DNA from: Gammaproteobacteria bacterium
GTDB taxonomy: Bacteria; Pseudomonadota; Gammaproteobacteria; Burkholderiales; Sulfuricellaceae
Direction: 5' to 3'
Assembly: GCA_018823025.1 (NCBI GenBank)
Contig: JAHJJI010000089.1
Location: 1-64,000, forward strand
Length of the DNA: 64,000 nt
Shown here piece after piece: positions 10,275-31,270 of this stretch; positions within the stretch are counted from its first letter, which is position 1; the number at the start of each line of letters is the position of its first letter. The translations under genes were made by a program, and so were the position numbers. The notes under the pieces were generated by a model that saw only the letters and a list, made by a program, of their open reading frames with translations, was not told where the DNA came from and ran no database searches.

Positions 10275-10318
10275 TGCAACTCACCACCATATTTTGTTCA
10301 AGACATGTGATTCAACAC

Positions 10319-10613: not shown

Positions 10614-10641
10614 TTGTAAAATATTGCGGCAAAAATAGATA
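10614..10641 (+). promoter_or_regulatory. Possible sigma70 promoter of prsT
   Basis: TTGTAA (10614-10619) and TAGATA (10636-10641) are separated by 16 bases and end about 50 bases before the prsT ATG. The match is moderate. No plus-strand -24/-12 motif with correct spacing was found between 10275 and 10690. The rest of this 416-base gap is AT-rich, with a short TAAATAATA repeat near 10541-10560, and shows no gene. Confidence 0.3.
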
Positions 10642-10690
10642 CCATATAAGACCGGGTTGCCTAGCAAAACTCTATAAGCAGAAAGTACCT

Positions 10691-13486: not shown

Positions 13487-13492
13487 TTAATC

Positions 13493-16372
13493 ATGAAGAA
13501 ATACGCTGTTGCGCACCCCTGTACACGCTGGGACTCCGCAATTCTCAAGCATCCAGCAAGATCGATCATGCGCCACTTCAGCCTGATGATTCTTCTCCCG
13601 CTTCTATTACTGGCTGGTCTGTCCCCAATCAGCGGCTGTAGCCGCAATCTAACTCCTGTCGAACATGTCACAAAGGCCAAGGAGCACATGGACAAAGGCG
13701 AATATCGCCCAGCACTTATTGAATTAAACAACGCGCTTCAAAAAGATCCCAACTCGGTAGAAGGGCGCTGGTTACTAGGTAAAGTCGCAGTAAATCTGGG
13801 TGATGGCGCCCGCGCAGAAAAAGAAATCAAAAAAGCCACTGAGTTGGGTTTGAAGCGCGCGTCAACACAGGTTACTTTAGTCAAGGCCATTCTGTTACAG
13901 GGCGACCTGGATCGGGTGATGACAGAAAGCGGCACACTGCCGCCCGATGTGTCTAAAACGGATCAGGCCGCTATCCTCGGACTGCGGGGACAGGCCTTTA
14001 TCGCCAAGGGCCAGTTCGACCTGGCGCAACAGGCCCTGGAGCAGGCCTTGCAAATCAAGTCCGATTCGGTCCCTGCATTGATCGGCATGACCGCCCTGCA
14101 TGGCTACCAGCGCCACTATGATATCGCCCGATCATGGGTAGAAAAAGCGCTGAAGGCGGATTCGTCCTCTGTCGATGCCTGGAGCGCTCTGGGAGATCTG
14201 GAACTGGCCCAGGAGAGGTTGGCAGAGGCGGAAAAAGCCTACGATAGTGCCATCAAGCACAGAGCTACACCCTATTTCGAACACGCCAAACGAGCACAAG
14301 TACGTACCCAGCTTAAAAAATTCCAGGAGGCGGCAGCCGACATCAAGGTCTTAAAAGAATCGGGGTTTAAAGACCATCCCTATGTGAATTACATCGCCGG
14401 GCTGAATTATTTCGCCCAGAAAAAATATCAGGAAGCGGCAACGGCATTCCAGGCCAGCTACCAGGCTGTTCCCGCCTTTCTGCCCAACAGAATCTACCTG
14501 GCCACCGCCCATCTCATGCTCGGCAACACCGAGCAGGCGCTCAATCATGCGCAACAGATTTTTGCGCTCGCGCCCCGCTCCAGAGCGGCTAAAAACCTGC
14601 TTGGCAGCATTCTGATCAGCCGAGTCGAATACGATGGCGCAAAAGGCATCCTGCAAAAAACCCTGACCAATTCCCCCAATGATCCCCAGGCACTGGGCAT
14701 GATGGCCACCGTCTCCATGCTGGAGGGCGAGACGGCAAAAGGGCTGGAATACGCCAAAAAACTTGCCGCGCTGGAACCCGACTCGAAACCGGCCCAGGAC
14801 ATGCTCATGGTGGCAAAACTGATGGCCGGTGAAGCGCTAGACAAGACTATCAGCCAGACCGGCAATCAGGCCGGCGCTACGGGCGATGCTTACACCCAGG
14901 AACTCATGCTGGCGCTCGCCGCCTTCCGTGACAACAAACTCAAGGAAACCCTCGAACTCGCCAAAGCGCTCCATGCCCGTTACCCGGACAAAGTTGACCC
15001 GCCCAAACTGATGGCAGCCTGCTATCTCGCCGCAGCCCAGTGGGATCAGGGCAAGGCCGAACTGGAAAAAGTCCTCAAGCTCCAGCCCAATGAACCCTCT
15101 GCCACCCGCAACCTCGCCAAGGTAGAAGCCCTGCAAGGCAACTATCCGCGGGCGAAAACCCTGCTGAAAGCCCTGCTGAAAGCCCAGCCCGGCGACACCA
15201 ATGCCGCACAGCTACTGGCCAGTGTCGATAGCCTGCTGGGCAATCCTGTTGCTGCCCTCGAGGTGCTGGAGCAGGCGTCGAAAAGTAACCCCAATGACCT
15301 GAACCTGCGCGCTCACCTCGGACAAACCGCTCTAACAGCGGGCCGCCCTGCCGCGGCGCTGGACATCACCCGCGAACTGACGGATGCCCAGTTTCGCCAG
15401 CAACCAGCGCTGCTGGAACTGCGCGGCAAAGCTCTGCTGTTGACTGGAGATAACGCATCCGCCGCCAGCACCTTCGAGAAGTGGACGAAAATCGCCCCTA
15501 ACTCTGCTCCCGCCCATTTTCAATACGCCAATGCCCTGGCCGGCCAGAATGATGCATCCCGCGCCCGCAAAGCACTAGAGCAAGCGATAAAACTCGACCC
15601 CCGCTACCTGCCTGCTCGCGTGGGAGAAATCAAGATGCGCGCGCAATTCCGCGAACTGGATCAGGCAAAAAAGGCGCTCGCCAAACTCCGGCAGGATTTT
15701 GGCGACCGGGTCGAAGTGCTGAGCATCGAGGGATGGTTTGCGTTGGGTACCAACGATTTCCCTGTTGCCGAACAAAAATTTGCCGCGGCCCTCAAGAAAG
15801 CCCCGGCTTCGGAACTGGTTGTTCTCACCAGCCGGGCGCAGTGGGCACAGAAAAAACGGGAGCCCGCCCTCAAAACCTTGCGCGACTGGCTGAAGGACCA
15901 CCCCAATGATGTGCTAGTCCATATGCAACTGGCTGGCGCTTATTTGGATATGGGCAAGGACGCGGATGCCTTGGCAGCCTATGGCCAGGTCGTCAAAATC
16001 GTCCCCCAGCATGTGCCTGCTCTCAACAACCTGGCCTGGCTGAATCGGGACAAAGCCCCCAAACAAGCCATGGACTACGCCCAGCAGGCCTATCAATTGG
16101 CTCCCCAAGACCCCTACGTGCTTGATACCCTGGGCATGCTGACACTCAAAAATGGCAATCCGATGCGCGCCGTCAGCCTGTTGCGCGATGCCGCCACCCG
16201 TGCCCCGGCCGATCCCAAAATCCAGATGCATCTGGGCAACGTGCTGGTCCAGCAGAAACGCTTTGGCGAAGCGCAGAAAGTCCTGGAAACCCTGATGCAG
16301 AAGCATCCCAACACGCCTGAGGCCAAGGAAGCCCGCACTTTGTTGGAGTCATCCCGCAGCTCGGGACGCTGA
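13493..16372 (+). CDS. Second PrsT-type TPR lipoprotein
   Basis: This 959-residue protein is a PrsT homologue: a hydrophobic stretch ending at SGC-SRN (lipobox-like), then TPR units over nearly the whole length (ALIELNNALQKDPNSVEGRW resembles AIIQLKNALQKTPDDAEARY of the first copy). The start at 13493 is favoured by GGGAGGA nine bases upstream, overlapping the prsT stop. It leaves a long 50-residue leader; ATG 13568 (MRHFSLMILL) would give a more usual signal peptide but has no good ribosome site. Co-transcribed with prsT and the glycosyltransferase. Two tandem but diverged copies suggest division of labour, or hetero-assembly. Confidence 0.9.
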   Translation: MKKYAVAHPCTRWDSAILKHPARSIMRHFSLMILLPLLLLAGLSPISGCSRNLTPVEHVTKAKEHMDKGEYRPALIELNNALQKDPNSVEGRWLLGKVAVNLGDGARAEKEIKKATELGLKRASTQVTLVKAILLQGDLDRVMTESGTLPPDVSKTDQAAILGLRGQAFIAKGQFDLAQQALEQALQIKSDSVPALIGMTALHGYQRHYDIARSWVEKALKADSSSVDAWSALGDLELAQERLAEAEKAYDSAIKHRATPYFEHAKRAQVRTQLKKFQEAAADIKVLKESGFKDHPYVNYIAGLNYFAQKKYQEAATAFQASYQAVPAFLPNRIYLATAHLMLGNTEQALNHAQQIFALAPRSRAAKNLLGSILISRVEYDGAKGILQKTLTNSPNDPQALGMMATVSMLEGETAKGLEYAKKLAALEPDSKPAQDMLMVAKLMAGEALDKTISQTGNQAGATGDAYTQELMLALAAFRDNKLKETLELAKALHARYPDKVDPPKLMAACYLAAAQWDQGKAELEKVLKLQPNEPSATRNLAKVEALQGNYPRAKTLLKALLKAQPGDTNAAQLLASVDSLLGNPVAALEVLEQASKSNPNDLNLRAHLGQTALTAGRPAAALDITRELTDAQFRQQPALLELRGKALLLTGDNASAASTFEKWTKIAPNSAPAHFQYANALAGQNDASRARKALEQAIKLDPRYLPARVGEIKMRAQFRELDQAKKALAKLRQDFGDRVEVLSIEGWFALGTNDFPVAEQKFAAALKKAPASELVVLTSRAQWAQKKREPALKTLRDWLKDHPNDVLVHMQLAGAYLDMGKDADALAAYGQVVKIVPQHVPALNNLAWLNRDKAPKQAMDYAQQAYQLAPQDPYVLDTLGMLTLKNGNPMRAVSLLRDAATRAPADPKIQMHLGNVLVQQKRFGEAQKVLETLMQKHPNTPEAKEARTLLESSRSSGR

Positions 16373-17667: not shown

Positions 17668-18708
17668 TCAGACGTGATTCTTGCGGCGGGCCGATACCAC
17701 CAAGCCCAAGAGGCCAATCCCCATCAGGGCCAGCATGCCAGGTTCAGGCACGCGCGTTACCAGAGTGGAAGTCAAGGCATTCAGCGTCAATGTCCAGGTA
17801 CCCGCAGACAAACCCGCGGTGTTGATTCCATAAGACCCAAGACCATATGCCCCAGGCCCCCAACTGGAATCGGCAGCAGTACCGTTGGTAGAGGTACCAA
17901 CATTGACGTTGAGATCTTCAGTGTCAGTTCCGGCCATTTCTACACAAGTAAGACCTAGGCCAGCAGCAATGCAATCATTGACACCTACAGTCCCCTGCGG
18001 GTTCCAGTTAATGAAGCCACCACCGCCATCTTTTTGCAGCGTAAAGGAAGTGTTCATATTGGCCTGCGCCTGGTAGGCGCCTGGAGCTTCGCCAAAAATC
18101 GCCGCCCGCATATCAGGGTCAGCGAGGAAGGACAAGTCCAGCGTGGCCGAGGAACCCGTAACCTGGAACGTAAAGGTAAACGAGGTCGTAGATTTGATCT
18201 CGGCATTGGCTGCTGCCGCGCCACTGTTTGAAATCAGGGATTCTGCAATCTGGTTGGTGCTGGACGGCAAGCCATTAACCAGTTCAGCCGTGTAAATGAC
18301 CGAGTCGGAATTAGACCAGTTGCCAGCCAGGTTAGCCGGGGTATCCCCGTAGAAGGTGAAGGAATTGGCCGTGGTGGCATTGTTGGCACGGGTGACAACG
18401 GTGCTACCCGGTGCATTCACCGCGTTAGCGTCCAGTACCGGGGATACTCCACAGTTATTGGAACCCGGCGTACCGAAACAGGTCCCGGTGGCGATACCGC
18501 TGACGCCGTTGAGGGTAGCGGTATTGGTCAGGTTGAAATTGAAATTGAAGCCGCCGACCGAGCCACCCGCACCTGGGTTGATGCTGATAATAAGGTCTTG
18601 CATATTCAGCCCTGAGGCTGCGTACACATAAGCGGCCGCCTGCTGGCTGACGCCCAGAGCGAGTGCGGCTGTTACGGCTGCCGCCAGCACTGATTGTTTA
18701 ATTTTCAT
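17668..18708 (-). CDS. PEP-CTERM sorting-domain surface protein
   Basis: This 346-residue secreted protein has a clear signal peptide (MKIKQSVLAAAVTAALALGV, cut near QAAA-YV). A low-Cys body rich in Asn, Gly, Ser and Thr follows. The C-terminal PEP-CTERM tripartite signal is VPEPG, then LALMGIGLLGLVVS, then ARRK. It would be processed by an exosortase of the XrtA type, not encoded in this window. The start has AAGGAGAT upstream. A near-consensus sigma54 promoter ends 102 bases before the ATG. The body shows no domain that I recognise; its function is unknown beyond being an exported, sorted protein, perhaps part of the extracellular matrix. Confidence 0.9.
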   Translation of the reverse strand: MKIKQSVLAAAVTAALALGVSQQAAAYVYAASGLNMQDLIISINPGAGGSVGGFNFNFNLTNTATLNGVSGIATGTCFGTPGSNNCGVSPVLDANAVNAPGSTVVTRANNATTANSFTFYGDTPANLAGNWSNSDSVIYTAELVNGLPSSTNQIAESLISNSGAAAANAEIKSTTSFTFTFQVTGSSATLDLSFLADPDMRAAIFGEAPGAYQAQANMNTSFTLQKDGGGGFINWNPQGTVGVNDCIAAGLGLTCVEMAGTDTEDLNVNVGTSTNGTAADSSWGPGAYGLGSYGINTAGLSAGTWTLTLNALTSTLVTRVPEPGMLALMGIGLLGLVVSARRKNHV

Positions 18709-18810
18709 GATTATCTCCTTACGTAGATTGATTAATTACTTAACCAGTGCCAATGTCGGGTTGTACTAAGATCTATGTAACGGATCATTGCACTTCGTAC
18801 ACAATCATAA

Positions 18811-18825
18811 GCAATTGGTGTGCCA
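18811..18825 (-). promoter_or_regulatory. Sigma54 promoter of PEP-CTERM gene 17668-18708
   Basis: On the minus strand TGGCACACCAATTGC is an exact TGGCAC-N5-TTGC. Its last base lies 102 bases from ATG 18708. TGTAATTATA follows four bases upstream (18830-18839). The rest of the gap up to 19075 is AT-rich to about 18890 and shows no convincing gene. Confidence 0.8.
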
Positions 18826-19075: not shown

Positions 19076-19732
19076 CTATCTGAGGCGTTTTGCCGGCACG
19101 CCGCCCCAGACCTCATTCGGTCCGATATGGGTGTCTTTAAGTACCACGGCACCTGCCGAGACGATAGCCCCATCGCCGATCTGCACTCCGGACATGATGA
19201 CGGCGGTGGCGCCGATGGTGACGTTGTCGCCAACCCGGATGCGGGAGAGGGCAAAATGCTGGCCCTCGATGGCATGGCAAAACAACACCGCATCATGGCC
19301 GATGATGCAGTTGGCGCCGAACTCGGTGAGCGGCGGATCAAGGAGGGTGCCGGCGCTGTAGGTGTTTTCGCCCAAGCGTGCCCCCAGCGCCAGATACACT
19401 AAGCGCATCAGCGGCACCGGCAGGAAGTGGGTGCGAATCAGGCTGTTGAAAAGCATCAGGTAGAACAGGATGTTGACCTGAGCGGCGAATTCCTCTCGCG
19501 AACCCTCGGCCAGTTCGCCCTCTTTGAGCGGCATGAAATGCAAAAACAGCCGGTACACGGCAAAGCCGTACAAATAGACAAGCACGATCGCCCCCCCCAC
19601 TACGCTGACACCGCGAAAATCCCCTAACGGCAACGCCCCCAGCAACCCATATGCAGTAATGATACCGAGCAGCAGAATACTGCCGAAAAGCAGAAAAAAC
19701 AGCGTGATTTGCGGCGGGGTGATTTTGCGCAT
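19076..19732 (-). CDS. Membrane-anchored hexapeptide-repeat acyltransferase
   Basis: This 218-residue protein has two N-terminal membrane helices (about 10-32 and 42-65). A left-handed beta-helix domain of hexapeptide repeats follows (FGANCIIGHDAVLF, RVGDNVTIGATAVIMSGVQIGDGAIVSAGAVVLKD), ending in the family's WGGVPAKRL. Enzymes of this type O- or N-acetylate sugars; the membrane anchor suggests work on lipid-linked or nascent polysaccharide at the inner membrane. It begins 24 bases after the glycosyltransferase at 19757-20977 and forms an operon with it. The substrate cannot be told. Confidence 0.85.
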   Translation of the reverse strand: MRKITPPQITLFFLLFGSILLLGIITAYGLLGALPLGDFRGVSVVGGAIVLVYLYGFAVYRLFLHFMPLKEGELAEGSREEFAAQVNILFYLMLFNSLIRTHFLPVPLMRLVYLALGARLGENTYSAGTLLDPPLTEFGANCIIGHDAVLFCHAIEGQHFALSRIRVGDNVTIGATAVIMSGVQIGDGAIVSAGAVVLKDTHIGPNEVWGGVPAKRLR

Positions 19733-19756: not shown

Positions 19757-20977
19757 CTAACCCAAAACTTCCGAAACGAACGCCCGAAAACGTTGCCCGG
19801 TATCCACTTGCCTGAACCGCTCGCCCGCCTGCACGGCTGCCTGAGCGTAGACGGGGGTTTCAAGCAGGGCACGGACAGCTTCTTTCAGTTGGGCGGATCG
19901 GACACACGCTGCCCGCAGGGATAAGCCCGCGCCCAAGAGTTCGATGGCGTTCATGTTGAGCAACTGATCCATGTTGGAGCAGATTCCCAGGATGGGCACC
20001 CCAGTGGCTAAAGCCTGGTAGGTGGTCAGGCTGCCGCCATTGCAGATGACCAGGCTTGCGCGCTGAGCAACGATATCCAGTGGCAGATAGTCGGCCACGA
20101 AGGCATTGGCGGGCACATCAGGCAGGTCAATTTTGCCTGCGGTGGCGGCTATCACAGTGATCGGCAGTTCAGACAAGGCGAATAAGGCCATCGGCAACAA
20201 GTCCGCTCGGCCCGAGCTGCCCAGGGTCAACAATACCACGGGGTTTTTGTCCGGCAGGCGATCCCACCAGTCCGGCAGGGGCGCGCGAGCAGACCAGAGT
20301 GGCGGACCAAGATAACGGTGGTTGGCAGGCAACGGTCGTGTGGGAACCAACTCGGGCACATCGGCATACAGGGTGTAATCGCCCCAGGCGTAGACATTTC
20401 TTAAATCCGACCCCAGCGGCGGCAGCCCGTAATGACGGCGCACCCGGTTCAAGGGTCGGGCATGCAGGGCAAAGGCCATGGGCCTGACGGTGTCGAACAG
20501 TTTTTGCGCCAGGCGGACGCCCAGAATCCGGGTCATGGGCAGATCGGGTACCGGATAGACAGTGTCGGCGAACGGGCTCCAGTAGGCATTAACCAAGGCG
20601 GCATAGGGGATGCGGCGCAGCGGCGCGCTCACGGCCAGCGACAGCCGGAAGTCTCCGACCACCAGATCGGGTTTGACGCTGTCGAGCAGCACCAGGTCGT
20701 CTTCGACGTACTGGGTGAGCGTCTCGACGCTATACAGTGGCTTGCCCCGGGCAAGGGCTTGTGCGAATTCGGCGGAGGGGATGGATCGAATGGGATGGAA
20801 GGCGCAGTCAAGCGGCGCTTCCAGGTCAGCATAGCGGGGGTCCGATGCGACAACCACTTCGTACGCAGCCGGATCGAGCGCCTTCGCCAGCGTTACAATC
20901 CGCGCGAAATGCGCAAGCGTGACCGCTTCAGCAACAAGAAGAATGACTGGCTTGTTTCGGGTTTGCATTACACTCAT
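19757..20977 (-). CDS. GT1-type (MGT-like) glycosyltransferase
   Basis: This 406-residue GT-B glycosyltransferase is related to the one at 16379-17581. The N-terminal region (ILLVAEAVTLAHFARIVTLAKAL) is the acceptor half. The donor half has VVLLTLGSSGRADLL and LVICNGGSLTTYQALATGVPILGI, where the usual GGxGT is GGSLT. The start could be ATG 20977 or ATG 20968. It is the first gene of a two-gene minus-strand operon with the hexapeptide transferase. It is divergent from the permease operon across 266 bases in which I see no gene or -24/-12 motif. Confidence 0.85.
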   Translation of the reverse strand: MSVMQTRNKPVILLVAEAVTLAHFARIVTLAKALDPAAYEVVVASDPRYADLEAPLDCAFHPIRSIPSAEFAQALARGKPLYSVETLTQYVEDDLVLLDSVKPDLVVGDFRLSLAVSAPLRRIPYAALVNAYWSPFADTVYPVPDLPMTRILGVRLAQKLFDTVRPMAFALHARPLNRVRRHYGLPPLGSDLRNVYAWGDYTLYADVPELVPTRPLPANHRYLGPPLWSARAPLPDWWDRLPDKNPVVLLTLGSSGRADLLPMALFALSELPITVIAATAGKIDLPDVPANAFVADYLPLDIVAQRASLVICNGGSLTTYQALATGVPILGICSNMDQLLNMNAIELLGAGLSLRAACVRSAQLKEAVRALLETPVYAQAAVQAGERFRQVDTGQRFRAFVSEVLG

Positions 20978-21243: not shown

Positions 21244-22467
21244 ATGGCTAACCTGCTGATTGCTGCGCGCAACCTTGCACGCAATCGGCGGCGGGCACTG
21301 TCAGCCTTGCTTACGGTGGCTGCCGGCGTTGTTGCGCTGGTGCTCGCCGACGGCTTCACTCAGTGGATTTTATGGGCGATGCGCGAAGGTACGATCCAGT
21401 CCCAATTAGGCCACATTCAGGTCATGCGACCCGGATATCTCAAAGCGGGCGCGGCCAATCCTTATGCTTATGTATTGCCGGAGAGCTTGCCGCAGCGCAA
21501 AGAGATCGAATCCACTCCCGGCATCAAGGTGGTGGCGCCAAGGCTGGCGGTGACCGGGCTCATCAGCCACGGCGAGACGACAATAGCTTTTGTAGCGGAT
21601 GGTGTCGACCCGCAAAAGGAGGCGCTGTTGAGCAAGGCATTCCGTATCGTGGATGGCCATGATCTGTCGAGCCTGACTGCCCAGGAGGTGGTGCTGGGGC
21701 GTGGCTTGGCGCGCAATCTCGGGGTAACCCAGGGTGCCACCATAGCACTGCTGGCAACCACTTCAGGCGGTAGCATCAACGCTGTCGAGGCGAAAGTCGC
21801 CGGGATATTTATCAGCGCCAATCAAGCCTACGACGATGCCGCTCTGCGTCTGCCCATCGGCTTGGCACAGTCACTGCTGCGCGTTAACGGCGCCCACGCC
21901 TGGCTGGTGCTGCTCGATGACACCGAGCGCACGGACGATTATCTCACCCAGTTCCGCGCCCGCTTCCCCATGCCGGAGAATAAGCTAGAGTTCGTGCCCT
22001 GGTACCAGCAGGCAGATTTCTACAACAAGACGGTGGCGCTGTTCTCGCAGCAGATGAACGTGCTGCGGCTGATCATTGGCTGCATTATCGTGCTCAGCAT
22101 TTCCAACATGCTGGTGATGAATGTGCTCGAGCGTACCGGCGAGATCGGCACGCTGCTGGCCATTGGCTTTAAGCGCAAAAAAATCCTTCACCTGTTCGCC
22201 ATCGAGGGACTGTTGCTCGGGCTGGCCGGCGCATCTCTGGGGCTGGGCGCCGGCTACGGGCTGGCCGAAGCGATCTCCGCGATTGGCATTCCCATGCCAC
22301 CGCCCCCCGGCATGGAAGAGGGTTACACCGGCGAAATCCGGGTCACCTTGAACGTGGTGATAAATGCGTTTCTGATTGCATTCATCACCACTGCGCTGGC
22401 GGGTTTGTATCCGGCATGGAAAGCTTCGCGCCTGCAAATCATCAACGCGTTGCGTCACAATATTTGA
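21244..22467 (+). CDS. FtsX/LolCE/MacB-type ABC permease, first copy
   Basis: This 407-residue inner-membrane permease has the MacB/LolC topology: one N-terminal helix (LSALLTVAAGVVALVLA), a large periplasmic domain of about 220 residues and three C-terminal helices, ending WKASRLQIINALRHNI. The frame extends to TTG 21217, but ATG 21244 with AGGGG upstream is the better start. It shares the motif MPPPPG followed by GYT and IR with the permease 14 bases downstream, so the two arose by duplication and probably form a heterodimer. The ATPase is likely the FHA-ABC protein at 24671. Type VII ABC systems of this kind extract lipoproteins or export molecules mechanically; cargo unknown. Confidence 0.9.
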   Translation: MANLLIAARNLARNRRRALSALLTVAAGVVALVLADGFTQWILWAMREGTIQSQLGHIQVMRPGYLKAGAANPYAYVLPESLPQRKEIESTPGIKVVAPRLAVTGLISHGETTIAFVADGVDPQKEALLSKAFRIVDGHDLSSLTAQEVVLGRGLARNLGVTQGATIALLATTSGGSINAVEAKVAGIFISANQAYDDAALRLPIGLAQSLLRVNGAHAWLVLLDDTERTDDYLTQFRARFPMPENKLEFVPWYQQADFYNKTVALFSQQMNVLRLIIGCIIVLSISNMLVMNVLERTGEIGTLLAIGFKRKKILHLFAIEGLLLGLAGASLGLGAGYGLAEAISAIGIPMPPPPGMEEGYTGEIRVTLNVVINAFLIAFITTALAGLYPAWKASRLQIINALRHNI

Positions 22468-22481
22468 GGACTGCGTAAGCC

Positions 22482-23693
22482 ATGTTCAAGCTCGCCTTCC
22501 GCAACATCTTCCGCCAGCGTTTGCGCACTGCACTGACACTGGCGGCAATCATCACCGGGGTGGTCGCCATCATCATCAGCGGCGGCTTTGTCGAGGATGT
22601 GTTCGTGCAGCTGCGCGAATCGACAATCCATTCGCGCATCGGGCACGTGCAAATTTTGAGGAGCGGCTATCTCGAGTACGGTCGGCGCGACCCGGCGCAT
22701 TATATGATCGCGCAGCCGAAGGACGTAGTGGACGCGGTACAGTCCATTCCGCATGTGCAGGCCATGATGACCCGAGTAAACTTTTCCGGGCTGGCCAACA
22801 ACGGACGCGCCGATTTGCCCATTATCGGCGAAGGCGTTGAACCAGGCAGGGAAGCGCAACTGGGAACAGCCACCACCATTGTTGCCGGCCGCCCGTTGAA
22901 GGATGCGGACACCTTCGGCGCCGTGATCGGTGAAGGTGTCGCCGCCGCCCTGCATCTGCGCCCCGGCAGCTTCGTAACCTTGATGGTGAATACGCCAGAA
23001 GGTGCACTGAACACCCTTGAGTATGAAGTCGTCGGCGTGTTCCGAACTTTCTCCAAGGATTACGATGATCGAGCCGTACGCATTCCGTTATCAGCCGCCC
23101 AGGAATTACTGTTTACCCGGTCGGTACATAGCGCTGTCGTGTTGTTGGATGACACCGCCGCAACCGATGCGGTGGCCGCGATCATCAGAGCCAAGCTGGA
23201 GCCACTCGGTTACGTCGTGAAGCCCTGGCATGAATTGGCCGATTTTTATCAAAAGACCGAGGCCCTGTACCGACGCCAGTTCGGTGCGCTGCAGGCTATC
23301 ATTCTTGTCATGCTGGTATTGAGCGTGGCCAGCACCATCAACATGGTGGTCTATGAACGCACCGGCGAATTCGGAACCCTGCTCGCTCTGGGCCTGCGCC
23401 GGCGCCAAATCTTCAAGCTCGTCCTGCTCGAAAATGCGCTGCTGGGCTTGCTCGGCAGCCTGGTCGGCGTGGTCGTGGGAAGCGTGCTTGCGAGCTTGAT
23501 ATCGGGCATCGGCATATCCATGCCGCCGCCGCCCGGCTCGAACGTGGGCTACACTGCTACGATTCGACTGGTGCCGTGGGTGCTTGTGATGGCGGCCCTG
23601 ACTGGCGCGCTGGCGGCGATTATGGCTGCCGTGCTTCCGGCTCGTCGCGCCTCACGCCTGCCGGTAGTGGAGGCGCTGCGCCATAATATTTGA
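22482..23693 (+). CDS. FtsX/LolCE/MacB-type ABC permease, second copy
   Basis: This 403-residue paralogue of the preceding permease has the same layout: an N-terminal helix (LTLAAIITGVVAIIISGG), a periplasmic MacB-type domain and three C-terminal helices (MLVLSVASTINMVVYERTGEFGTLLALG, NALLGLLGSLVGVVVGS and VLVMAALTGALAAIMAAV regions). It carries MPPPPGSNVGYT and ends RLPVVEALRHNI. Its stop lies nine bases from the convergent stop of the LolA-like gene, with no evident terminator between them. Confidence 0.9.
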   Translation: MFKLAFRNIFRQRLRTALTLAAIITGVVAIIISGGFVEDVFVQLRESTIHSRIGHVQILRSGYLEYGRRDPAHYMIAQPKDVVDAVQSIPHVQAMMTRVNFSGLANNGRADLPIIGEGVEPGREAQLGTATTIVAGRPLKDADTFGAVIGEGVAAALHLRPGSFVTLMVNTPEGALNTLEYEVVGVFRTFSKDYDDRAVRIPLSAAQELLFTRSVHSAVVLLDDTAATDAVAAIIRAKLEPLGYVVKPWHELADFYQKTEALYRRQFGALQAIILVMLVLSVASTINMVVYERTGEFGTLLALGLRRRQIFKLVLLENALLGLLGSLVGVVVGSVLASLISGIGISMPPPPGSNVGYTATIRLVPWVLVMAALTGALAAIMAAVLPARRASRLPVVEALRHNI

Positions 23694-23702
23694 AACACTG
23701 CT

Positions 23703-24515
23703 TCAGCGACTGAGTTTCTTCAGGTAATCCTTGGTGAATACCTTGTCCGGCAGGTCACGCATGACCATGTCGCCATATTCGAGCACCGAACGTCGACCGC
23801 GGCGCAAGGCATCTTCTATCACCAGTCGAGTCGGTCGCGTTTCCCCGCCCAGTGCACGAAACTCCTGGTAGAGGCCGGTTTTCAGCAGACGGCCCGAAAG
23901 CGCATAGAACTCGGCTTTATAAGGCCGACTGTTTTTTGAGTTCACCCAGAAGAGCACCTTGCGATATGTGACACCGCTATCGACTGCATCCAATTGTAAA
24001 ACGTGATAGGACTCACCATCGATTTTCTCTGTGCGCAGAAGTCTGGGTTCGTAATCACCCACAAAATTGGCGCGAGCCAGGTCGCCATTCGCAACCTGTC
24101 CGGTCAGTTTCTGCGAGAGCGGCAAACGAATCGGTTGTGACAGGTTGGGCAGGAAGGCCCACAGGTCGCGATCCCGCATCAGCAGAATCTGCCCCCGGTC
24201 AACCACCGGCGCCGTTGTCTGCACCAGGGTCTGGTCGTTACCTTTGGAGAGTATCCGGTAAGCGCGTACGTCTTCAGCGGCATCGGGTTCGGTTGTCGTG
24301 ATGGTCACGTCAACCTGGAAGCTTTCGTCAGGGAAACGGATACGGTCTGCGCGAGTCAGCATTTCACGAGCAACGGAATCTCCACCTGTGGTGTCGGCAG
24401 CCAGCGCCGGCCTGAAAATCAACAACAGCAGCGCGACGGCAAAAACCGTCCAGAAAGGCTTCCTCCGATAGCACGTAATAAAAATGTCGCGGGGATAAGA
24501 TGGAATCATAGCCAT
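23703..24515 (-). CDS. LolA-like outer-membrane lipoprotein-sorting protein
   Basis: This 270-residue protein has a signal peptide (FWTVFAVALLLLIFRPALA-AD). The mature domain has the beta-rich pattern of the LolA-like family often annotated as outer membrane lipoprotein-sorting protein: SFQVDVTITTTEPDAAEDVRAY, LLMRDRDLWAFLPNLSQPIRLPL, then YHVLQLDAVDSGVTYRKVLFWVN and TRLVIEDALRRG. These proteins carry lipid-modified cargo across the periplasm in a hydrophobic half-barrel. It sits on the opposite strand between the permeases and the ATPase. Its presence makes a complete inner membrane-periplasm-outer membrane route likely; it is not the housekeeping LolA by sequence or context. Confidence 0.85.
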   Translation of the reverse strand: MAMIPSYPRDIFITCYRRKPFWTVFAVALLLLIFRPALAADTTGGDSVAREMLTRADRIRFPDESFQVDVTITTTEPDAAEDVRAYRILSKGNDQTLVQTTAPVVDRGQILLMRDRDLWAFLPNLSQPIRLPLSQKLTGQVANGDLARANFVGDYEPRLLRTEKIDGESYHVLQLDAVDSGVTYRKVLFWVNSKNSRPYKAEFYALSGRLLKTGLYQEFRALGGETRPTRLVIEDALRRGRRSVLEYGDMVMRDLPDKVFTKDYLKKLSR

Positions 24516-24670
24516 AAGAGGTGTCCTGTCAGCTCAAAACGAATAAACTAAGATTATCGAATACTATATGATAAAGAGAATAAGTGGAGTCATGTGCATG
24601 CCAGGCAATAAGCAAAAATCTGAGTTTTGTCCGCGCCAGTATTGTTCCTGGACTACCAGAAGGAGGGGTC

Positions 24671-25654
24671 GTGGCTAGCCTCCTGATAAGTCAGGACCAG
24701 CAAATCCTGCGGAATATTCGACTCCACTCGGCGGACCTCAAGATTGGCCGCGCCTCGGAATGCGAGATACAACTGCCAGATCCGGGAATCAGCCGCAAAC
24801 ATGCGCGGATTACTTTAGTCGACGGCGTCTATTACCTGGAAGACTTGGGGAGCAGATGTGGCGTCTTCCTGAACGGAGAAAAAATCCAGCGTGCCCCACT
24901 GAAAAATGGCGACAAGCTCACGATTCACCACTTTCAACTGGATTTTGTTGCCGATGAAGAAAGCAATGCTGAACCTACGGCAGTAATCGTCGAGGCCAAA
25001 GGAGTAGGCAAAGAGTATGCCCTTGGAAAGCAAACCGTTACGGCATTGCGCAACATTTCCCTCACGATCCGTAAAGGCGAATTCATGGCGTTGGCGGGGC
25101 CGTCGGGGAGCGGCAAATCGACCATGCTCAACCTGATTGGCTGTATTGACACGCCGACCACGGGAAGCATCCTGATCGGGGGGCAGGACATCAGCGACAA
25201 AACACCCGATGAACTGGCCGATTTGCGACTGAACACGCTGGGTTTTGTCTTCCAGACCTTCAATCTGCTGCCGGTATTGTCAGCCTGGGAAAATGTCGAA
25301 TATCCCTTGTTGCAGCAACCTAATGTAACCAGAAAAACGCGGCAAGAACGCGTCCAGCATTATCTGAAGGTGGTTGGCCTGGAACCCTATGCGCACCACC
25401 GCCCCAACGAATTGAGCGGCGGGCAGCGCCAGCGGGTGGCGATCGCGCGCGCCCTCGCCACCCGTCCAAGCATCGTCCTGGCAGACGAACCGACTGCCAA
25501 CCTTGACCACAAAACCGGCGAAGGTATTCTCAGGCTGATGAAAGACCTCAACCAGGAAGAAGGCACGACCTTCATTTTTTCCACCCATGATGCGCGCGTC
25601 ATGGAGATGGCCGACCGGGTGATAGAACTGGCCGATGGCCAGATAATGGAATAG
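24671..25654 (+). CDS. ABC ATPase with N-terminal FHA domain
   Basis: This is a 327-residue cytoplasmic ATPase. The first ~100 residues are a forkhead-associated domain (LKIGRASECEIQLPDPGISRKHARI, then NGEKI), a phosphothreonine reader. The remainder is a LolD/MacB-type ABC domain with Walker A GPSGSGKST, Q-loop FVFQTFNLLP, signature LSGGQRQRVAIARAL, Walker B IVLADEPT and switch STHD. The start is GTG 24671 with AAGGAGGGG four bases upstream; the frame is open to 24584, but that extension has no ribosome site. The fusion implies control by a Ser/Thr kinase, or docking to a phosphorylated partner. It probably powers the two permeases upstream. Confidence 0.92.
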   Translation: MASLLISQDQQILRNIRLHSADLKIGRASECEIQLPDPGISRKHARITLVDGVYYLEDLGSRCGVFLNGEKIQRAPLKNGDKLTIHHFQLDFVADEESNAEPTAVIVEAKGVGKEYALGKQTVTALRNISLTIRKGEFMALAGPSGSGKSTMLNLIGCIDTPTTGSILIGGQDISDKTPDELADLRLNTLGFVFQTFNLLPVLSAWENVEYPLLQQPNVTRKTRQERVQHYLKVVGLEPYAHHRPNELSGGQRQRVAIARALATRPSIVLADEPTANLDHKTGEGILRLMKDLNQEEGTTFIFSTHDARVMEMADRVIELADGQIME

Positions 25655-25664
25655 GGAGAACACC

Positions 25665-27158
25665 ATGGGAGACCATTTTTTCCCAAAAACCCGATGGCTG
25701 GGTCAGCCACCAAGGTTTCTCGGGGTCTTGCTGCTGGGCCTGCTGATCACCCCCATCCCGGCGGGCGCAGCAGAAAAGAGCAAAAACCGCATGGATGTGG
25801 AATCCATCGACGACCTCTTTGGCAGCCCTCCCCCTGCCCCCAAGAAACCGGCAGAGAAAACCACCCCCCAGGACAAACCGACCGAAGCGCCGCAAGACAT
25901 CAGCGCACCTGCCGTGCCTGAATCCGTGCCGCCAAACCAGCCCTCATCCTCCGAACCGCACTTGGCCGGTTTTTATCAGAATGACCTGGCTTACACCTAT
26001 GCCGACAAAAAGCATTGGTCCAGATTCAACAACACCCTCGATCTCTCCACCCAAGGCCGCACGTCGGGTGGCGTGGCGTGGAAGCTGGGCGGGCGCGTCA
26101 ATTACGACCCAATCTACGACCTCGCCGACACCTACCCACAAGCGGTGCGCAATGATCAGCGTTTCGAGGCCATAATCCGTGAAGCCTATATGGATTTTTC
26201 GTCCGGCGACTGGGATTTTCGCTTGGGTCGACAGCATGTCGTCTGGGGCGAAATGGTCGGGCTGTTTTTTGCTGACGTGGTATCGGCCAAGGATATGCGC
26301 CAACTCGTGCTGCCGGATTTCGACATCATCCGCATCCCGCAATGGGCGGCGCGAGCCGAGTATTTTCTGGGCGATTTTCACGTCGAGGGCGTATGGATAC
26401 CCTACATGAGCTACGACAACATCGGCAAGCCCGGGGCCGAGTTCTACCCGTTCAATCCACCCGCCGTAGCCGGTACCGTCATTGCCGCGGAAAAACAACC
26501 CGTCGGCCTGGGTGAGGCGGCTTACGGAACGCGCTTGTCCTGGCTCAAGAGTGGCTGGGACGTTTCGGGTTTCTACTACACCGCCAACGATCCATCGGCA
26601 GCCTTCTCGCGCCAGATTGCGCTGCTACCCACCCCCACCATCACCTATCAGCCCATTCATGAGCGGATTCACCAATTGGGTGCCACTCTGGGCAAGGATC
26701 TGGGGCCGATGGTACTCAAGGCTGAGGCAATCTACACCAAAGACAAACTGTTCAACACCACCAGCGCCACCGATGCGGACGGCCTGGTCAAGCAAAACAT
26801 TCTGGATTACATCGTCGGGCTGGAATGGAGCTTTCCTCAGGAAACCCGCTTCAACGCGCAATTTTTTCAGCGCTGGTTCCCCGGCCACGATGCAGGCATC
26901 GTGCCGGACAAGACCGAAAGCGGTATCTCCCTCCTGTTCAGCACCCAGGCCCTGCACCCTAAGCTCGAACCAAAATTGCTGCTGATCCGGAGTTTAAACC
27001 GCGAAGACTGGGCCGCCCAGTTCAAACTCACCTGGAAACTGGACGGCAACTGGCGACTGGCAACCGGTGTCGATATTTTTACAGGGCCGCCAACGGGCCT
27101 GTTCGGTGCGTTCGACGATAAAGACCGGGTTTATACCGAGGTGCGCTACAGTTTTTGA
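25665..27158 (+). CDS. DUF1302-like outer-membrane beta-barrel protein
   Basis: This 497-residue exported protein has a signal peptide ending PAGA-AE. A Pro-rich linker follows (about 50-98, PPPAPKKPAEKTT and similar), then a long beta-barrel domain ending in VRYSF, whose C-terminal Phe is typical for Bam-assembled barrels. The segment WDFRLGRQHVVWGEMVGLFFADVVSAKDMRQ resembles the DUF1302 family. It starts ten bases after the FHA-ABC gene and is co-transcribed with it. Context suggests it is the outer-membrane end of the transport route; whether it is a channel or a receptor is open. Confidence 0.82.
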   Translation: MGDHFFPKTRWLGQPPRFLGVLLLGLLITPIPAGAAEKSKNRMDVESIDDLFGSPPPAPKKPAEKTTPQDKPTEAPQDISAPAVPESVPPNQPSSSEPHLAGFYQNDLAYTYADKKHWSRFNNTLDLSTQGRTSGGVAWKLGGRVNYDPIYDLADTYPQAVRNDQRFEAIIREAYMDFSSGDWDFRLGRQHVVWGEMVGLFFADVVSAKDMRQLVLPDFDIIRIPQWAARAEYFLGDFHVEGVWIPYMSYDNIGKPGAEFYPFNPPAVAGTVIAAEKQPVGLGEAAYGTRLSWLKSGWDVSGFYYTANDPSAAFSRQIALLPTPTITYQPIHERIHQLGATLGKDLGPMVLKAEAIYTKDKLFNTTSATDADGLVKQNILDYIVGLEWSFPQETRFNAQFFQRWFPGHDAGIVPDKTESGISLLFSTQALHPKLEPKLLLIRSLNREDWAAQFKLTWKLDGNWRLATGVDIFTGPPTGLFGAFDDKDRVYTEVRYSF

Positions 27159-27359: not shown

Positions 27360-27374
27360 TGGCATGTTTGATGC
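27360..27374 (+). promoter_or_regulatory. Sigma54 promoter of the THxN PEP-CTERM gene
   Basis: TGGCATGTTTGATGC keeps the -24 TGGCA and the -12 TGC with a 10-base GG-to-GC spacing. It ends 102 bases before ATG 27477, the same distance as at the other PEP-CTERM gene. TGTAATT lies upstream at 27324-27330. The rest of the 318-base gap (27159-27476) shows no gene. Confidence 0.72.
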
Positions 27375-27476
27375 ATTGGATTCAGGTGAGAGTAGAACGA
27401 GAGTGACTAGTGCAGTTCAGTCATCATGTATCTGGCTCGGCTTTTCCTTGCTGCTTTTCCATCAGGAGTCCGCATC

Positions 27477-28298
27477 ATGAAAACTCTAAATATGAAACTT
27501 AAGTTACTGCTAGCTGCCTTTGCCGCCCTCGCAGCCTGCAACGCCTCTGCAGGCTTGATCACCCAGTGGACGGTGGGCGTCAATACGATCTTCGATACCA
27601 CAACCGTAGTGCCGATACCGGGTGTCACCGTGGTCAATAACCAGACCCTGCGGTGGGGCACCAGCACAGGTTCCGGGCAAAGCGGGCTGAATATCACCGA
27701 TTCACCCAGCTCGGCCACCGTCTTCACCGATGGCGCCGCCGTTGCCAATGTATCGATTACCCACTTGAACCGGCCGGTCACCGGAACCTCTCTCAGCTCC
27801 GTTGATATATTGTCCACCTTGACACTGACGCCATTGGTTCCCGCACTTCCTGGACTGCCTTCGGCAACCATCACGTTCGGGGTCAACTTCGCGGAGACCC
27901 CCAACGGCGATAACCCATGCGCCGGCGGAGGTGCAAACGGTGTAGGCGTGAACATAAATGGCTGTGCCGATGTTTTCGTTATCGACCAGAATGCACTGAA
28001 CTTCGGCTTCATGTACGACACCGATGGTATCGGCGGAGATGATCCAGTTCAGTACTACATCAGCTTCTTCGAGCTCACCAGCGGACTCAACCCGCTGCCT
28101 TCTGTTGCCTGTGGTGCTGCTGGATCAACCGCACCTTGCCTCGGCTTCAGGACTCCGGAAGGGGCGGATACGACTTTCCAATTCGCATCGCTGATTACCA
28201 CCGAGCGTGTTTCAGTTCCCGAGCCTGGCATCTTGTCCCTGATGGGACTGGGGTTGGCTGGCATGGTCTTCGCCTCCCGCCGCCGCAAACAGGCCTAG
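27477..28298 (+). CDS. THxN-type PEP-CTERM surface protein
   Basis: This 273-residue secreted protein has a signal peptide (MKLKLLLAAFAALAACNASA) and a C-terminal sorting signal of VPEPG, LSLMGLGLAGMVFA and SRRRK. The body contains NNQTLRWGTSTGSGQSGL, VFTDG and SITHLNRPV, fitting the THxN family of PEP-CTERM proteins. ATG 27477 is chosen over 27426 because AGGAG lies nine bases upstream and the signal peptide then has normal length. Expected to be cut and released or anchored by an exosortase coded elsewhere. Function of the family is unknown. Confidence 0.9.
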   Translation: MKTLNMKLKLLLAAFAALAACNASAGLITQWTVGVNTIFDTTTVVPIPGVTVVNNQTLRWGTSTGSGQSGLNITDSPSSATVFTDGAAVANVSITHLNRPVTGTSLSSVDILSTLTLTPLVPALPGLPSATITFGVNFAETPNGDNPCAGGGANGVGVNINGCADVFVIDQNALNFGFMYDTDGIGGDDPVQYYISFFELTSGLNPLPSVACGAAGSTAPCLGFRTPEGADTTFQFASLITTERVSVPEPGILSLMGLGLAGMVFASRRRKQA

Positions 28299-28435: not shown

Positions 28436-29512
28436 TCAAAGCTGCAACAGCTTCTGCATGGGCAGGCGCAGGGATCGGCTGTCTGCTGACCGCCCGCTGC
28501 CGATTCGTCCGAGAAAGACAGCTTGTCCCACTGCATCGTTCCGCAACAACCGGGAAAGACGGGCACCCAGGTTTGCCGCTGTTTCCATGGCACCGGGCAA
28601 GCGGCTGAACACCCTGTTTTCACGCACATAGCGGGCAAAAATCAGCGGGGTCATCTCTGGCTGCAGTTGCAGACCCAGGCTTGTAGCCGTCAGCCAGAAG
28701 CGCTGAACCGCCCGGCCTGCAGCAACGTAATCGTCTATCGTCTCAGGCGCTTTGTGCGCCAGAAGGGCGAAATGGGCAGCACAGAACAGGCCGGGCAACA
28801 GATCCATTTCAATCCGCGGCATCAGGTGCCCAGCCAAATAAGTGTTAAAAAAATCGACACGTTGCCAACTCCCCATGACCCAGCGCATCAATTTGAGAGT
28901 CATCTTATCCAGCCCCAGCGCCTGATCGGGCACCTTGTCCTCGCTGTATCGGGCTTGCCATTCGATGATGCTGCGGTGAACCGTATAGGCCTCCGGCAGG
29001 GTGAGCCTGAGCTTGGCATTGTCGTACATTAATTTGGCCAACTGCCAGCGTTGTGGCCCGCCCTCGAACCAACGTACGGCGTAAGATTTTCCGACAGCGA
29101 TTTGCAGGGCCTGTTTTTGTGCTTCGGTGAGAGGAGTAGTACGCATGGGCCGACGCTGCACGGAGCGGTTCTTGATGTAGGGCAGCAAGGAATCCGGCGG
29201 CAATTGGCTATCCGGGATCAGGTCCACGAAATAGTCAGGGTGAGTATCCGGTGAGTCGGGATGGCGCCTGAACTCCGCCCGCAGGCCATGCGCACTGGCA
29301 GCGATGGCGAGGGTTTCCAGCAGCGCGCCCAAGGCAATCTGGCTGGGGTGGCCATCCAGGTCATAGACGCAATGATCGCGGGTATCAAAAGCGTGGACGA
29401 CCAGATGGCGTTCGTCGATGATCTCAAAGCGCCAGGGCTGAGTATTGTCGCCGGAGGGCGCCCAGCGGGCGAATTCGAGAATATCTGAGATGGGCTGGGG
29501 AATCGGGTCCAT
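28436..29512 (-). CDS. Nitroreductase-family protein of the acyl amino acid operon
   Basis: This 358-residue protein starts with ILEFARWAPSGDNTQPWRFEI, the FMN-binding N-terminus of nitroreductases. It also has a middle ALGALLETLAIAASAHGL segment and a C-terminal LTATSLGLQLQPEM segment typical of the fold. It is longer than simple nitroreductases (about 200 residues) and resembles the C-terminal half of Rv1355c-type fusions, in which a ThiF domain precedes a nitroreductase domain. Its ATG follows the ThiF stop with no gap (TAAATG), implying translational coupling. It may reduce or oxidise an intermediate activated by the E1-like partner; the reaction is not known. Confidence 0.85.
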   Translation of the reverse strand: MDPIPQPISDILEFARWAPSGDNTQPWRFEIIDERHLVVHAFDTRDHCVYDLDGHPSQIALGALLETLAIAASAHGLRAEFRRHPDSPDTHPDYFVDLIPDSQLPPDSLLPYIKNRSVQRRPMRTTPLTEAQKQALQIAVGKSYAVRWFEGGPQRWQLAKLMYDNAKLRLTLPEAYTVHRSIIEWQARYSEDKVPDQALGLDKMTLKLMRWVMGSWQRVDFFNTYLAGHLMPRIEMDLLPGLFCAAHFALLAHKAPETIDDYVAAGRAVQRFWLTATSLGLQLQPEMTPLIFARYVRENRVFSRLPGAMETAANLGARLSRLLRNDAVGQAVFLGRIGSGRSADSRSLRLPMQKLLQL

Positions 29513-30370
29513 TTAAAGTCCGAGCATGCGTTTGGCAAGGGCAATGGCGAGACGTTGCAGGGGGTTACGGTTACCGCCAGGTCGCCAGGTCAGCGCCAGC
29601 TTGTTGCGGTAGGCATCGAAGTGATAACCCCTGGGAGCTGTCCGAATCGGGCCTCGACCCAGAAGAATTTTCAGAGCTTCAGTCGCCGCCACGCCCGCGC
29701 AAAGCTGGCAAGCCATGATAGTGGATGGGCCCTTGCGGTTGGCCAGATCAACTGCTGAAGGGTCAGCCAGGTAGCCCATTTGCAGGCGGGCGGGTGCAAG
29801 TCCCATGAGGAAACGCAGGGGCTTTTCCGCCTCAGGACCATCGTCCAGACGAAAATAATCATTAAAGCTCATGCCTCCCGGCAAAAAATTGAGTATGGCC
29901 GTGCCCATGCCCAGAGGGGCGGCAGTAACGGCGGGAATATTTTTGGTCTCACAAGCAGCAAAGACCTGCTGACGAGCCTGAAAGGCGAAGAAATCCAGAC
30001 CATCGACGTAGATATCCACGCCATCCAGAAAGGCATCCAGGTTGTCTGCTGTCACACCGCCGGCAAATTCCTTGATTTCAAGCTCCGGATTGATGTCGCG
30101 CGCCTGGCGGATCATCACCTCCATCTTGCCCAGACCCAGAGTGCTGACCGTCGCTCCAGCCTGGCGGTTGAAATTAGCCAGATCGAAGGTATCGAACTCG
30201 GCCAGATGGAATTTTCCTATGCCCAGCCGACAAAGCGTCAGCAGGTGTACCCCTCCCACGCCACCCAAACCGGCAATCGCCACGCGTTTATGACGCAACT
30301 GTTGCTGCTCCTGCCGGGTAAGCCAGCCGATATTGCGGGAAAAAGCTTCATCATAGGTAAAGGATTGCAT
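29513..30370 (-). CDS. ThiF/MoeB-type E1-like adenylyltransferase
   Basis: This 285-residue protein has the E1-like adenylation fold. VAIAGLGGVGGVHLLTLCRLGIG is the nucleotide-binding loop, EFDTFDLANFNRQAG carries the conserved Asp, Asn and Arg, and VTADNLDAFLDGVDIYVDGLD is the second half. ACQLCAGVAATEALKILLG is the usual C-terminal helix. The paired CxxC zinc motifs of MoeB are absent. These enzymes adenylate a C-terminal carboxylate. No ubiquitin-like or ThiS-like partner is encoded nearby, so a small-molecule carboxylate, for example an N-acyl amino acid, is a possible substrate. It lies 30 bases after the FeeM-like gene and abuts the nitroreductase. Confidence 0.88.
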   Translation of the reverse strand: MQSFTYDEAFSRNIGWLTRQEQQQLRHKRVAIAGLGGVGGVHLLTLCRLGIGKFHLAEFDTFDLANFNRQAGATVSTLGLGKMEVMIRQARDINPELEIKEFAGGVTADNLDAFLDGVDIYVDGLDFFAFQARQQVFAACETKNIPAVTAAPLGMGTAILNFLPGGMSFNDYFRLDDGPEAEKPLRFLMGLAPARLQMGYLADPSAVDLANRKGPSTIMACQLCAGVAATEALKILLGRGPIRTAPRGYHFDAYRNKLALTWRPGGNRNPLQRLAIALAKRMLGL

Positions 30371-30400
30371 GCGATCAAACCAGAGAACCCCATCAGGGGA

Positions 30401-31270
30401 TCATTCTCCCCTAAGCAGGCGCTGCGTGATACCCAATTCATCATCATGCGAGAAAAAATAGGGGTAGATCGACCTCACACCAGTGGCGGCCGCCCCCATC
30501 CCGCCATAGCGGACTATCTGTTCATCCGCGTGGGTTGCATCCAGTCTCATCAGTACGGCTGGCGCATTGACCCTGGGGCACGTCTTTTCTTCTCCAAATG
30601 GTTCAAATCCCATCATGCGTTCATAGAAAAGCACATGGCGCGGATTCACTTCAATCAGAAAATCCGATGCGTGATGAATGTTGTGTCCATAAATGAATGC
30701 CATATGAAACAAAGAGGCCAATACACTTTTTGACTTGATATCATGATCCACGGCTAGCCGAGTGATATCGCAAAGTTTTCTTCCTTCTGCGCGCAGTTGA
30801 TCTGCTTCCTGCTTGTAAAGCTGGTCTACCACCATCCCTTGAGGGGAGTCCATGCCCAAAGACATTGTGCCCACCACTTTATCTTCCTGGTAGACCGCCA
30901 AGGTTATCTTGTTGGGATCATGTCTTAACGCATCGGCATCATAGCCGCGCCAGTCATACATTTTCTGGATGAGCAAACTGGCTGATTTACGGCGGTCTTC
31001 GCTGTTGGCAAGACGAACCTTGAAAACCTGCTGTTCGGCCTTTTCATCCTGCTGGTTCGCAATGTCCTGGGGCGCCGGTAAGGCGAGGTCTCTTAACCAG
31101 TTGGGTGCGAAGTTAGGCGAGAAGGCGACGATGGTTTTGTCCCATTCATCTGGCGTTCTATGGCGCTTCTTATTGCCAAAAAGAAATTTGCGAACATCCA
31201 GCATACTCCATGCATCCGCCTTCCTGCGGCCATGCATGATGCCAGAAAAGAAATTGTGTATATCAAGCAT
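30401..31270 (-). CDS. FeeM-like long-chain N-acyl amino acid synthase (GNAT fold)
   Basis: This 289-residue protein has a GNAT-type acyltransferase core of the FeeM kind: KVRLANSEDRRKSASLLIQ, ITLAVYQEDKVVGTMSLGMD, KLCDITRLAVDHD, then VNPRHVLFYERMMGFEPFG and CPRVNAPAVLMRLD. FeeM enzymes join a long-chain acyl group from acyl carrier protein to an amino acid. Such synthases have been reported linked to PEP-CTERM/exosortase systems in Gram-negative bacteria, which matches this context. An N-terminal ~95-residue extension (MLDVRKFLFGNKKRHRTPDE) is of unknown role. It is first in a three-gene operon with the ThiF-like and nitroreductase genes. The ribosome site at 31270 is weak. Confidence 0.82.
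   Translation of the reverse strand: MLDIHNFFSGIMHGRRKADAWSMLDVRKFLFGNKKRHRTPDEWDKTIVAFSPNFAPNWLRDLALPAPQDIANQQDEKAEQQVFKVRLANSEDRRKSASLLIQKMYDWRGYDADALRHDPNKITLAVYQEDKVVGTMSLGMDSPQGMVVDQLYKQEADQLRAEGRKLCDITRLAVDHDIKSKSVLASLFHMAFIYGHNIHHASDFLIEVNPRHVLFYERMMGFEPFGEEKTCPRVNAPAVLMRLDATHADEQIVRYGGMGAAATGVRSIYPYFFSHDDELGITQRLLRGE

Follow-up and report, generated by a model that had tools for sequence, protein, structure and literature searches.

A candidate Lol-type trans-envelope exporter of the exosortase A/PEP-CTERM locus and its possible N-acyl amino acid lipid cargo

Introduction

Several described systems resemble the gene cluster considered here, five genes at positions 21244-27158 of a stretch of 64,000 nucleotides (hereafter the window) from a Gammaproteobacteria bacterium of the family Sulfuricellaceae (GenBank assembly GCA_018823025.1, 3.35 Mb in 145 contigs; contig JAHJJI010000089.1), which encode two FtsX-type permeases (PermA and PermB), a LolA-like periplasmic carrier, an ATP-binding cassette (ABC) ATPase with an FHA domain and a DUF1302-type outer-membrane barrel. 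LolCDE and LolDF with their carrier LolA share with this cluster the permease fold, a LolD-like ATPase, a carrier of the LolA superfamily and the duplication of the permease. The five-gene system would work like Lol and yet its permeases and ATPase stay below the curated cut-offs for Lol membership; in addition, its carrier belongs to PF17131 and not to PF03548, the loop at the position of the LolC Hook is shorter, and a DUF1302 barrel stands where Lol has LolB. In Borrelia, the cluster BBJ23-BBJ29 likewise contains a type VII ABC transporter together with a LolA-like carrier and a barrel of the outer membrane, and export of a non-polar ligand was proposed for it in 2026; there, however, the permease is homodimeric, the barrel is of the Omp85 family, TPR proteins are included, and the part of the study cited here reports no biosynthetic or exosortase link (PMC13078400). 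AmeABCD of Castellaniella has in common with the cluster a DUF1302 outer-membrane protein, a periplasmic protein of the LolA superfamily and a pump in the inner membrane, but the pump is of the RND (HAE3) and not of the ABC type, the carrier is a DUF1329 protein and the genes belong to a monoterpene island (PMC6394551). A DUF1329 carrier (PF07044) is absent from the genome studied here. In the initial annotation the cluster had been called undescribed, which does not hold in the strict sense, as related exporters have been proposed for Borrelia (PMC13078400) and studied in Castellaniella (PMC6394551). In the open-licence literature other than preprints, this very cluster is described in none of the titles and abstracts listed, and among the best 20 of 185 matches none joined exosortase or PEP-CTERM with LolA, LolC or DUF1302.

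How do PEP-CTERM proteins and N-acyl amino acid lipids leave the inner membrane? This is a standing question, and the scheme of 2006 has an 'unknown periplasmic nucleophile' as the acceptor of exosortase (PMC1569441). Sets of an N-acyl synthase, a ThiF protein and an oxidase lead to acyl-oxazolones in Mycobacterium tuberculosis (TyzABC) and Pseudoalteromonas (OxzAB) (PMC10404671; PMC12856293), and in Massilia, Thalassotalea and Stieleria the same trio has been connected with N-acyl dehydrotyrosines (PMC12479983). Export and fate of the acyl-oxazolones were called undetermined in 2023 (PMC10404671). OxzAB, TyzABC and TrzAS have the same combination of N-acyl synthase, ThiF protein and nitroreductase-family oxidase as an operon on the barrel side of the cluster, whereas the accounts of them, in the parts cited here, describe no exporter composed of ABC transporter, LolA-like carrier and barrel, the neighbour of tyz being mmpL9 (PMC10404671; PMC12856293). 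The XrtA/PEP-CTERM system, where XrtA stands for exosortase A, is co-inherited and physically linked with the cluster, and PrsK, PrsR, PrsT and PEP-CTERM genes as well as sigma-54-like sites share the window; the components that the cited part of the original account describes do not include the exporter (PMC1569441). What is new here is the membership of the exporter in the XrtA/PEP-CTERM locus. The cluster is best explained, still tentatively, as a dedicated Lol-type trans-envelope exporter of this locus with an N-acyl-amino-acid-derived lipid as the leading candidate for its cargo. A compact and conserved exporter tied to both PEP-CTERM and N-acyl lipid systems offers a direct genetic handle on the question.

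A five-gene system beside housekeeping Lol

All five genes read from the sequence in the initial annotation are present by Pfam. PermA (21244-22467, + strand) and PermB (22482-23693, +) form one closely spaced gene pair and the ABC gene (24584-25654, +) and the barrel gene (25665-27158, +) another. The carrier gene (23703-24515, -) lies on the other strand, as had been noticed; it diverges from the ABC gene and converges with PermB.

Is this arrangement found elsewhere? Scanning species genomes recovered 18 carrier relatives, most of them surrounded by the five genes, and profile searches found a carrier match in 68 of 300 genomes of the order and in 90 of 369 of the class. The carrier scores are split by a wide gap into a high group above 300 bits and a mid group of about 90-180 bits. 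The thresholds used throughout, chosen after this gap was visible, are a carrier score above 300 bits (or the split gene of genome G092), 100 bits or more for FeeM and a score over the cut-off for XrtA. Neighbourhoods were fetched for 42 high-scoring and, as controls, for 38 out of about 60 mid-scoring matches. The high-scoring loci, 61 in number, reduce to 58 non-redundant ones including the window after removal of L021 and L050, which equal L001 and L003, and of L051, whose carrier has the same C-terminus as that of L003. An ABC gene is found in 58/58 high loci by direct profile listing (mapped count 54), a DUF1302 barrel in 56/58, at least two permeases within 10 kb in 47/58 and one in 9; the divergent carrier/ABC core is retained in 52 of the 54 loci with both genes mapped. 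The mid loci resemble them in having an ABC gene, an FtsX permease, a PF17131 carrier and, in those shown, a short loop at the Hook position, but they differ by a single permease (36/38), by carrier and ABC gene on one strand (35/35 mapped) and by the lack of an XrtA link, and across these 38 control loci no DUF1302, FeeM, ThiF or flavin oxidase match was detected. The families recur together far beyond chance; absence of such co-occurrence had been named beforehand as an observation that would speak against a common system. The exporter is carried by 13 families and 16 genera, and among 299 genomes of the phylum only two high-scoring carriers were detected, both previously found. Judged by the carrier, Sulfuricella is the nearest named relative (91%).

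The exporter is an additional system, because the genome has its own LolC/E-type permease (one gene, which at 521 bits exceeds the curated cut-off) and its own LolA (one PF03548 protein), both on contigs other than that of the window. The carrier of the cluster is the only PF17131 member of the genome over the cut-off; a weak second PF17131-like match in the same genome (L020, G000:C124) reaches 21.5 bits and lies below it. It could be imagined that the cluster serves as an extra Lol route for some of the ordinary triacylated lipoproteins, such as PrsT or lipoproteins of exopolysaccharide (EPS) export, as would fit the LolC/E-like fold, the LolA-superfamily carrier and the two genes for PrsT lipoproteins that the window contains. 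This seems quite improbable, since Pfam assigns none of the cluster genes to PF03548 or to a LolB type (no genome-wide search for LolB itself was made), canonical Lol has no role for a barrel, the genome possesses housekeeping Lol genes and the Hook-position loop is shortened.

The permease pair

PermA and PermB each contain the FtsX C-terminal and MacB_PCD domains by Pfam. The AlphaFold2 model of PermA (predicted local distance difference test score, pLDDT, 87.6) finds its best PDB matches in the LolC and LolE chains of LolCDE, with Z 25-30 over about 370-390 residues, the MacB fold scoring lower (Z about 20). Against the LolC/E equivalog model TIGR02212, in turn, the two permeases reach 115 and 101 bits, below the cut-off of 362. 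The earlier suggestion that a Lol pathway was adapted here to a different cargo is upheld by this LolC/LolE fold, by the sub-cut-off scores and by the separate housekeeping LolC/E-type permease and LolA. No partner of the MacA/TolC type was found among the cluster genes scanned, and the ATPase is encoded by a gene separate from the permeases, which sets the cluster apart from exporters of the MacAB-TolC type, where both functions share one chain.

In a tree of 141 sequences the permeases of the high loci fall into a PermA clade of 47 members, joined by the lone permeases of two Deltaproteobacterial loci, and a PermB clade of 50 members with support 1.0; the mid-group permeases branch next, followed by the genome's own LolC/E-type permease, and the joint high clade has a support of only 0.58. 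The split into a PermA and a PermB clade traces the pair to a single duplication, parallel to that of LolC and LolE, and this is a second case of a LolC/E-like permease duplicated into a pair, outside housekeeping Lol. Both permeases contain the motif MPPPPG in a loop, as had been noticed; its first five residues MPPPP occur in 83/99 permeases of the high loci as compared to 7/38 of the mid loci and 0/4 other FtsX proteins of the source genome.

Carrier, ATPase and barrel

PF17131 is the sole Pfam family that matches the carrier at E 0.001 (E 1.7e-46), and its ortholog NE2245 was solved as PDB 3buu (380 bits with the family profile), so that a structure of a relative is already at hand. Its place in this cluster suggests that PF17131 proteins, named by Pfam for lipoprotein sorting, may carry other lipids. 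The ATPase contains an FHA domain (1.1e-20) and an ABC_tran domain (5e-35) of the LolD/DevA-like kind; LolD (TIGR02211) is its best-scoring model, even though the 229.9 bits obtained stay below the cut-off of 307.75. The likelier start of its gene is the GTG at 24671, preceded by AAGGAGGGG. The FHA domain had been counted as a part of the system, a claim that does not stand: it is found in 12/58 high loci and in no mid locus, which rules it out as a core component and marks it as a lineage-specific addition. The barrel, with a signal region and a low-complexity N-terminal stretch, matches DUF1302 (PF06980) with E 3.5e-19, and a search of its sequence against the PDB gave no credible match, just kinase noise at E 0.1 or above. 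The architecture of the system is well supported.

How could such a set of proteins act? PermA and PermB would pair as a heterodimer and form with the ABC ATPase a LolCDE-like machine that extracts a lipid or lipid-tagged molecule from the inner membrane. The PF17131 carrier, upon contact with the permeases, would take over the cargo and cross the periplasm, and the DUF1302 barrel would receive it at the outer membrane and insert or release it, the direction of transport being presumably outward.

Linkage to exosortase A and the PEP-CTERM system

The exporter belongs to the XrtA/PEP-CTERM locus, with which it is co-inherited and physically linked. Among the 300 genomes of the order, 31 contain the exporter and 73 XrtA, and XrtA is present in 30/31 exporter genomes versus 43/269 others (odds ratio 158, p 4e-20, with the proviso that the genomes are related; a genus-level bound gives p 7e-8). 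Genomes with mid-group carriers only do not stand out in this respect (XrtA in 9/29 versus 64/271, p 0.37). In the second sample, drawn from the class, XrtA is over its cut-off in 13/13 exporter genomes and in 0/7 mid controls. Of 8 further genomes that were reached through the loci, 4 have XrtA over the cut-off, 2 (Deltaproteobacteria) show exosortase matches below it and 2 show none. Where exporter and XrtA lie on one contig, they are 11-67 kb apart in 12/13 cases of the order, with an exception of 908 kb, and about 16-50 kb apart in 5/6 cases of the class sample, with an exception of 435 kb.

In the window itself, the part upstream of the cluster encodes PrsR, PrsK and an XrtA-type EPS glycosyltransferase (EpsB_2) at 2773-7630 (-; TIGR02915, TIGR02916 and TIGR03013) and two tandem PrsT TPR lipoproteins at 10691-16372 (+; TIGR02917, 970 and 625 bits, cut-off 312), all over the curated cut-offs. 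The cluster is moreover flanked by two PEP-CTERM genes, at 17668-18708 (-) and 27426-28298 (+), each preceded by a sigma-54-like site, an exact -24/-12 match at 18810-18825 (-) for the first and one with a single mismatch at 27360-27375 (+) for the second, with TTTACA about 100 bases before it. Such sites fit the Prs regulon of Haft 2006 (PMC1569441); over the window as a whole, their pattern is about as frequent as chance would give. The conserved unit extends past the five genes, to the PEP-CTERM regulatory and EPS genes at 764-16372 on one side and to the operon at 28436-31270 (-) on the other.

With XrtA as the strongest genome-wide association (30/31 versus 43/269; 13/13) in addition to the physical linkage, and with PrsK, PrsR, both PrsT and two PEP-CTERM genes with their sigma-54-like sites around the exporter, the cargo could alternatively be the exosortase product itself: XrtA would tag PEP-CTERM proteins with a lipid in the inner membrane, and the Lol-like machine would then bring them, or the acceptor lipid, to the cell surface. 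In the proposal of Haft 2006, an unknown periplasmic nucleophile takes over the proteins, and passage across the outer membrane follows (PMC1569441). We nevertheless regard this as unlikely, given that 43/73 XrtA genomes have no exporter, that two Deltaproteobacterial loci are accompanied by exosortase matches only below the XrtA cut-off and two Sterolibacterium loci by none, and that no sigma-54 site was detected upstream of the exporter genes. Control of the exporter by sigma-54 was dropped as an idea for this last reason. The 43 XrtA genomes devoid of an exporter and the exporter genes devoid of such sites weigh also against the exporter as a dedicated part of the XrtA/PEP-CTERM locus.

The FeeM-ThiF-flavin oxidase operon and the candidate cargo

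Past the barrel, a minus-strand operon at 28436-31270 brings together a nitroreductase-superfamily flavin oxidase of the Acg/Rv1355c C-terminal type, probably a desaturase (28436-29512, -), a ThiF-type adenylating enzyme, probably a cyclase (29513-30370, -; PRK08223 equivalog over cut-off), and a FeeM-family N-acyl amino acid synthase (30401-31270, -; PF21926, E 5e-57, matching PDB 2g0b). An N-acyl synthase (FeeM or TIGR03694) or a ThiF/flavin oxidase gene lies at most 10 kb away in 46/58 high loci, the TIGR03694 assignment resting on one scanned representative of a cluster of 16 loci. TIGR03694 is presumably the N-acyl amino acid synthase family treated, together with PEP-CTERM, by Craig et al. 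2011. FeeM is encoded on the contig of the exporter in 20/25 genomes at a median distance of 6.2 kb, 18 of them below 20 kb, and ThiF in 19/21 genomes at a median of 5.7 kb, as compared to a median of 25.6 kb between XrtA and exporter (n=12). In the distant locus L017, which has a single permease, the genes for ABC ATPase, permease, carrier, barrel, ThiF and oxidase follow one another on one strand, ThiF and oxidase directly after the barrel. The exporter may well carry a fatty-acid-decorated amino acid lipid, because it is inherited almost only with the exosortase system and with the enzymes of such a synthesis; the cargo would then be a lipid of the acyl-oxazolone or N-acyl-dehydro-amino acid type from the neighbouring operon.

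Several observations tell against this reading. Within the 73 XrtA genomes FeeM is present in 24/30 with exporter versus 27/43 without (p 0.13) and ThiF in 21/30 versus 27/43 (p 0.62), and FeeM itself tracks XrtA (51/73 versus 4/227 genomes), so that each of the two, FeeM and exporter, could go with XrtA on its own account. As there is no significant link of the exporter to FeeM or ThiF inside the XrtA genomes, genome-level co-occurrence backs the XrtA link only, and it is physical proximity and the arrangement of L017 that favour an N-acyl lipid as cargo. FeeM as sole cause of the association is weakened by these comparisons, and ThiF likewise. Moreover, in 12/58 loci no N-acyl synthase or ThiF/flavin oxidase is mapped within 10 kb, with a truncated ThiF at the contig end in L018, and FeeM has Asp168 here instead of its proposed catalytic Glu, at a position with 16 E and 9 D in 25 aligned rows (two of them duplicates). 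On the side of the exporter, the beta-rich model of the barrel is of low confidence (pLDDT 67.8) and finds only generic porin matches (TM score about 0.42 of the query). In addition, at the position of the LolC Hook, the hairpin that recruits LolA and is essential in E. coli (PMC10865981), the loop has 23 residues in the permeases of the window and the relatives shown, whereas the LolC/E-type permease of the same genome has 28; with these five residues fewer, docking in the style of LolA is not assured.

Could lipid synthesis and exosortase act on the same product? FeeM, ThiF and flavin oxidase would make an amino-lipid, XrtA would join it or its product to PEP-CTERM proteins, and PermAB-ABC, PF17131 carrier and DUF1302 barrel would act as a heterodimeric Lol pathway that brings the C-terminally lipidated proteins to the surface. 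The exporter would in that case supply the exosortase A system with its missing way across the envelope, a scheme to which we give little credence. Tandem copies of FeeM, two or three, lie beside the exporter in L036 (10351-13205), L047 and L001 (1414-3361), and tandem synthase copies were reported for the Stieleria clusters (PMC12479983).

Neighbouring genes and related operons

On the other side of the cluster an EryCIII/MGT-type glycosyltransferase gene (19757-20977, -) is divergent from PermA and followed by a hexapeptide acyltransferase gene (19076-19732, -). The flanks of PEP-CTERM and glycosyltransferase genes were correctly recognised from the sequence alone. Efflux of a glycolipid or another hydrophobic compound in the manner of AmeABCD, with the products of these two enzymes or environmental hydrophobes as cargo, would account for the combination of DUF1302 barrel and LolA-superfamily protein, which is that of AmeA and AmeB, whose deletion lowers monoterpene tolerance (PMC6394551), and for the glycosyltransferase and hexapeptide genes adjoining PermA in close relatives as well. 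Its chances appear slim, as glycosyltransferases of this family are found near only 14/58 and hexapeptide genes near only 15/58 high loci and the association of the exporter is with XrtA; as general cargo makers the two enzymes are ruled out by these counts. At the outer edge of the upstream region, an asparagine-synthase-like gene (764-2602, -) matches the XrtA/PEP-CTERM amidotransferase model with 300 bits, far short of the cut-off of 817.

The mid-group loci (L063-L100) represent a separate and widespread type of operon composed of ABC gene, single FtsX permease and PF17131 carrier, often with an adjacent open reading frame of about 420 aa, for which no Pfam match was obtained in the two examples scanned. 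Two further reading frames of about 350 and 246 aa recur near 11/38 of these loci, and the scanned representatives are a histidine kinase and a LytTR regulator.

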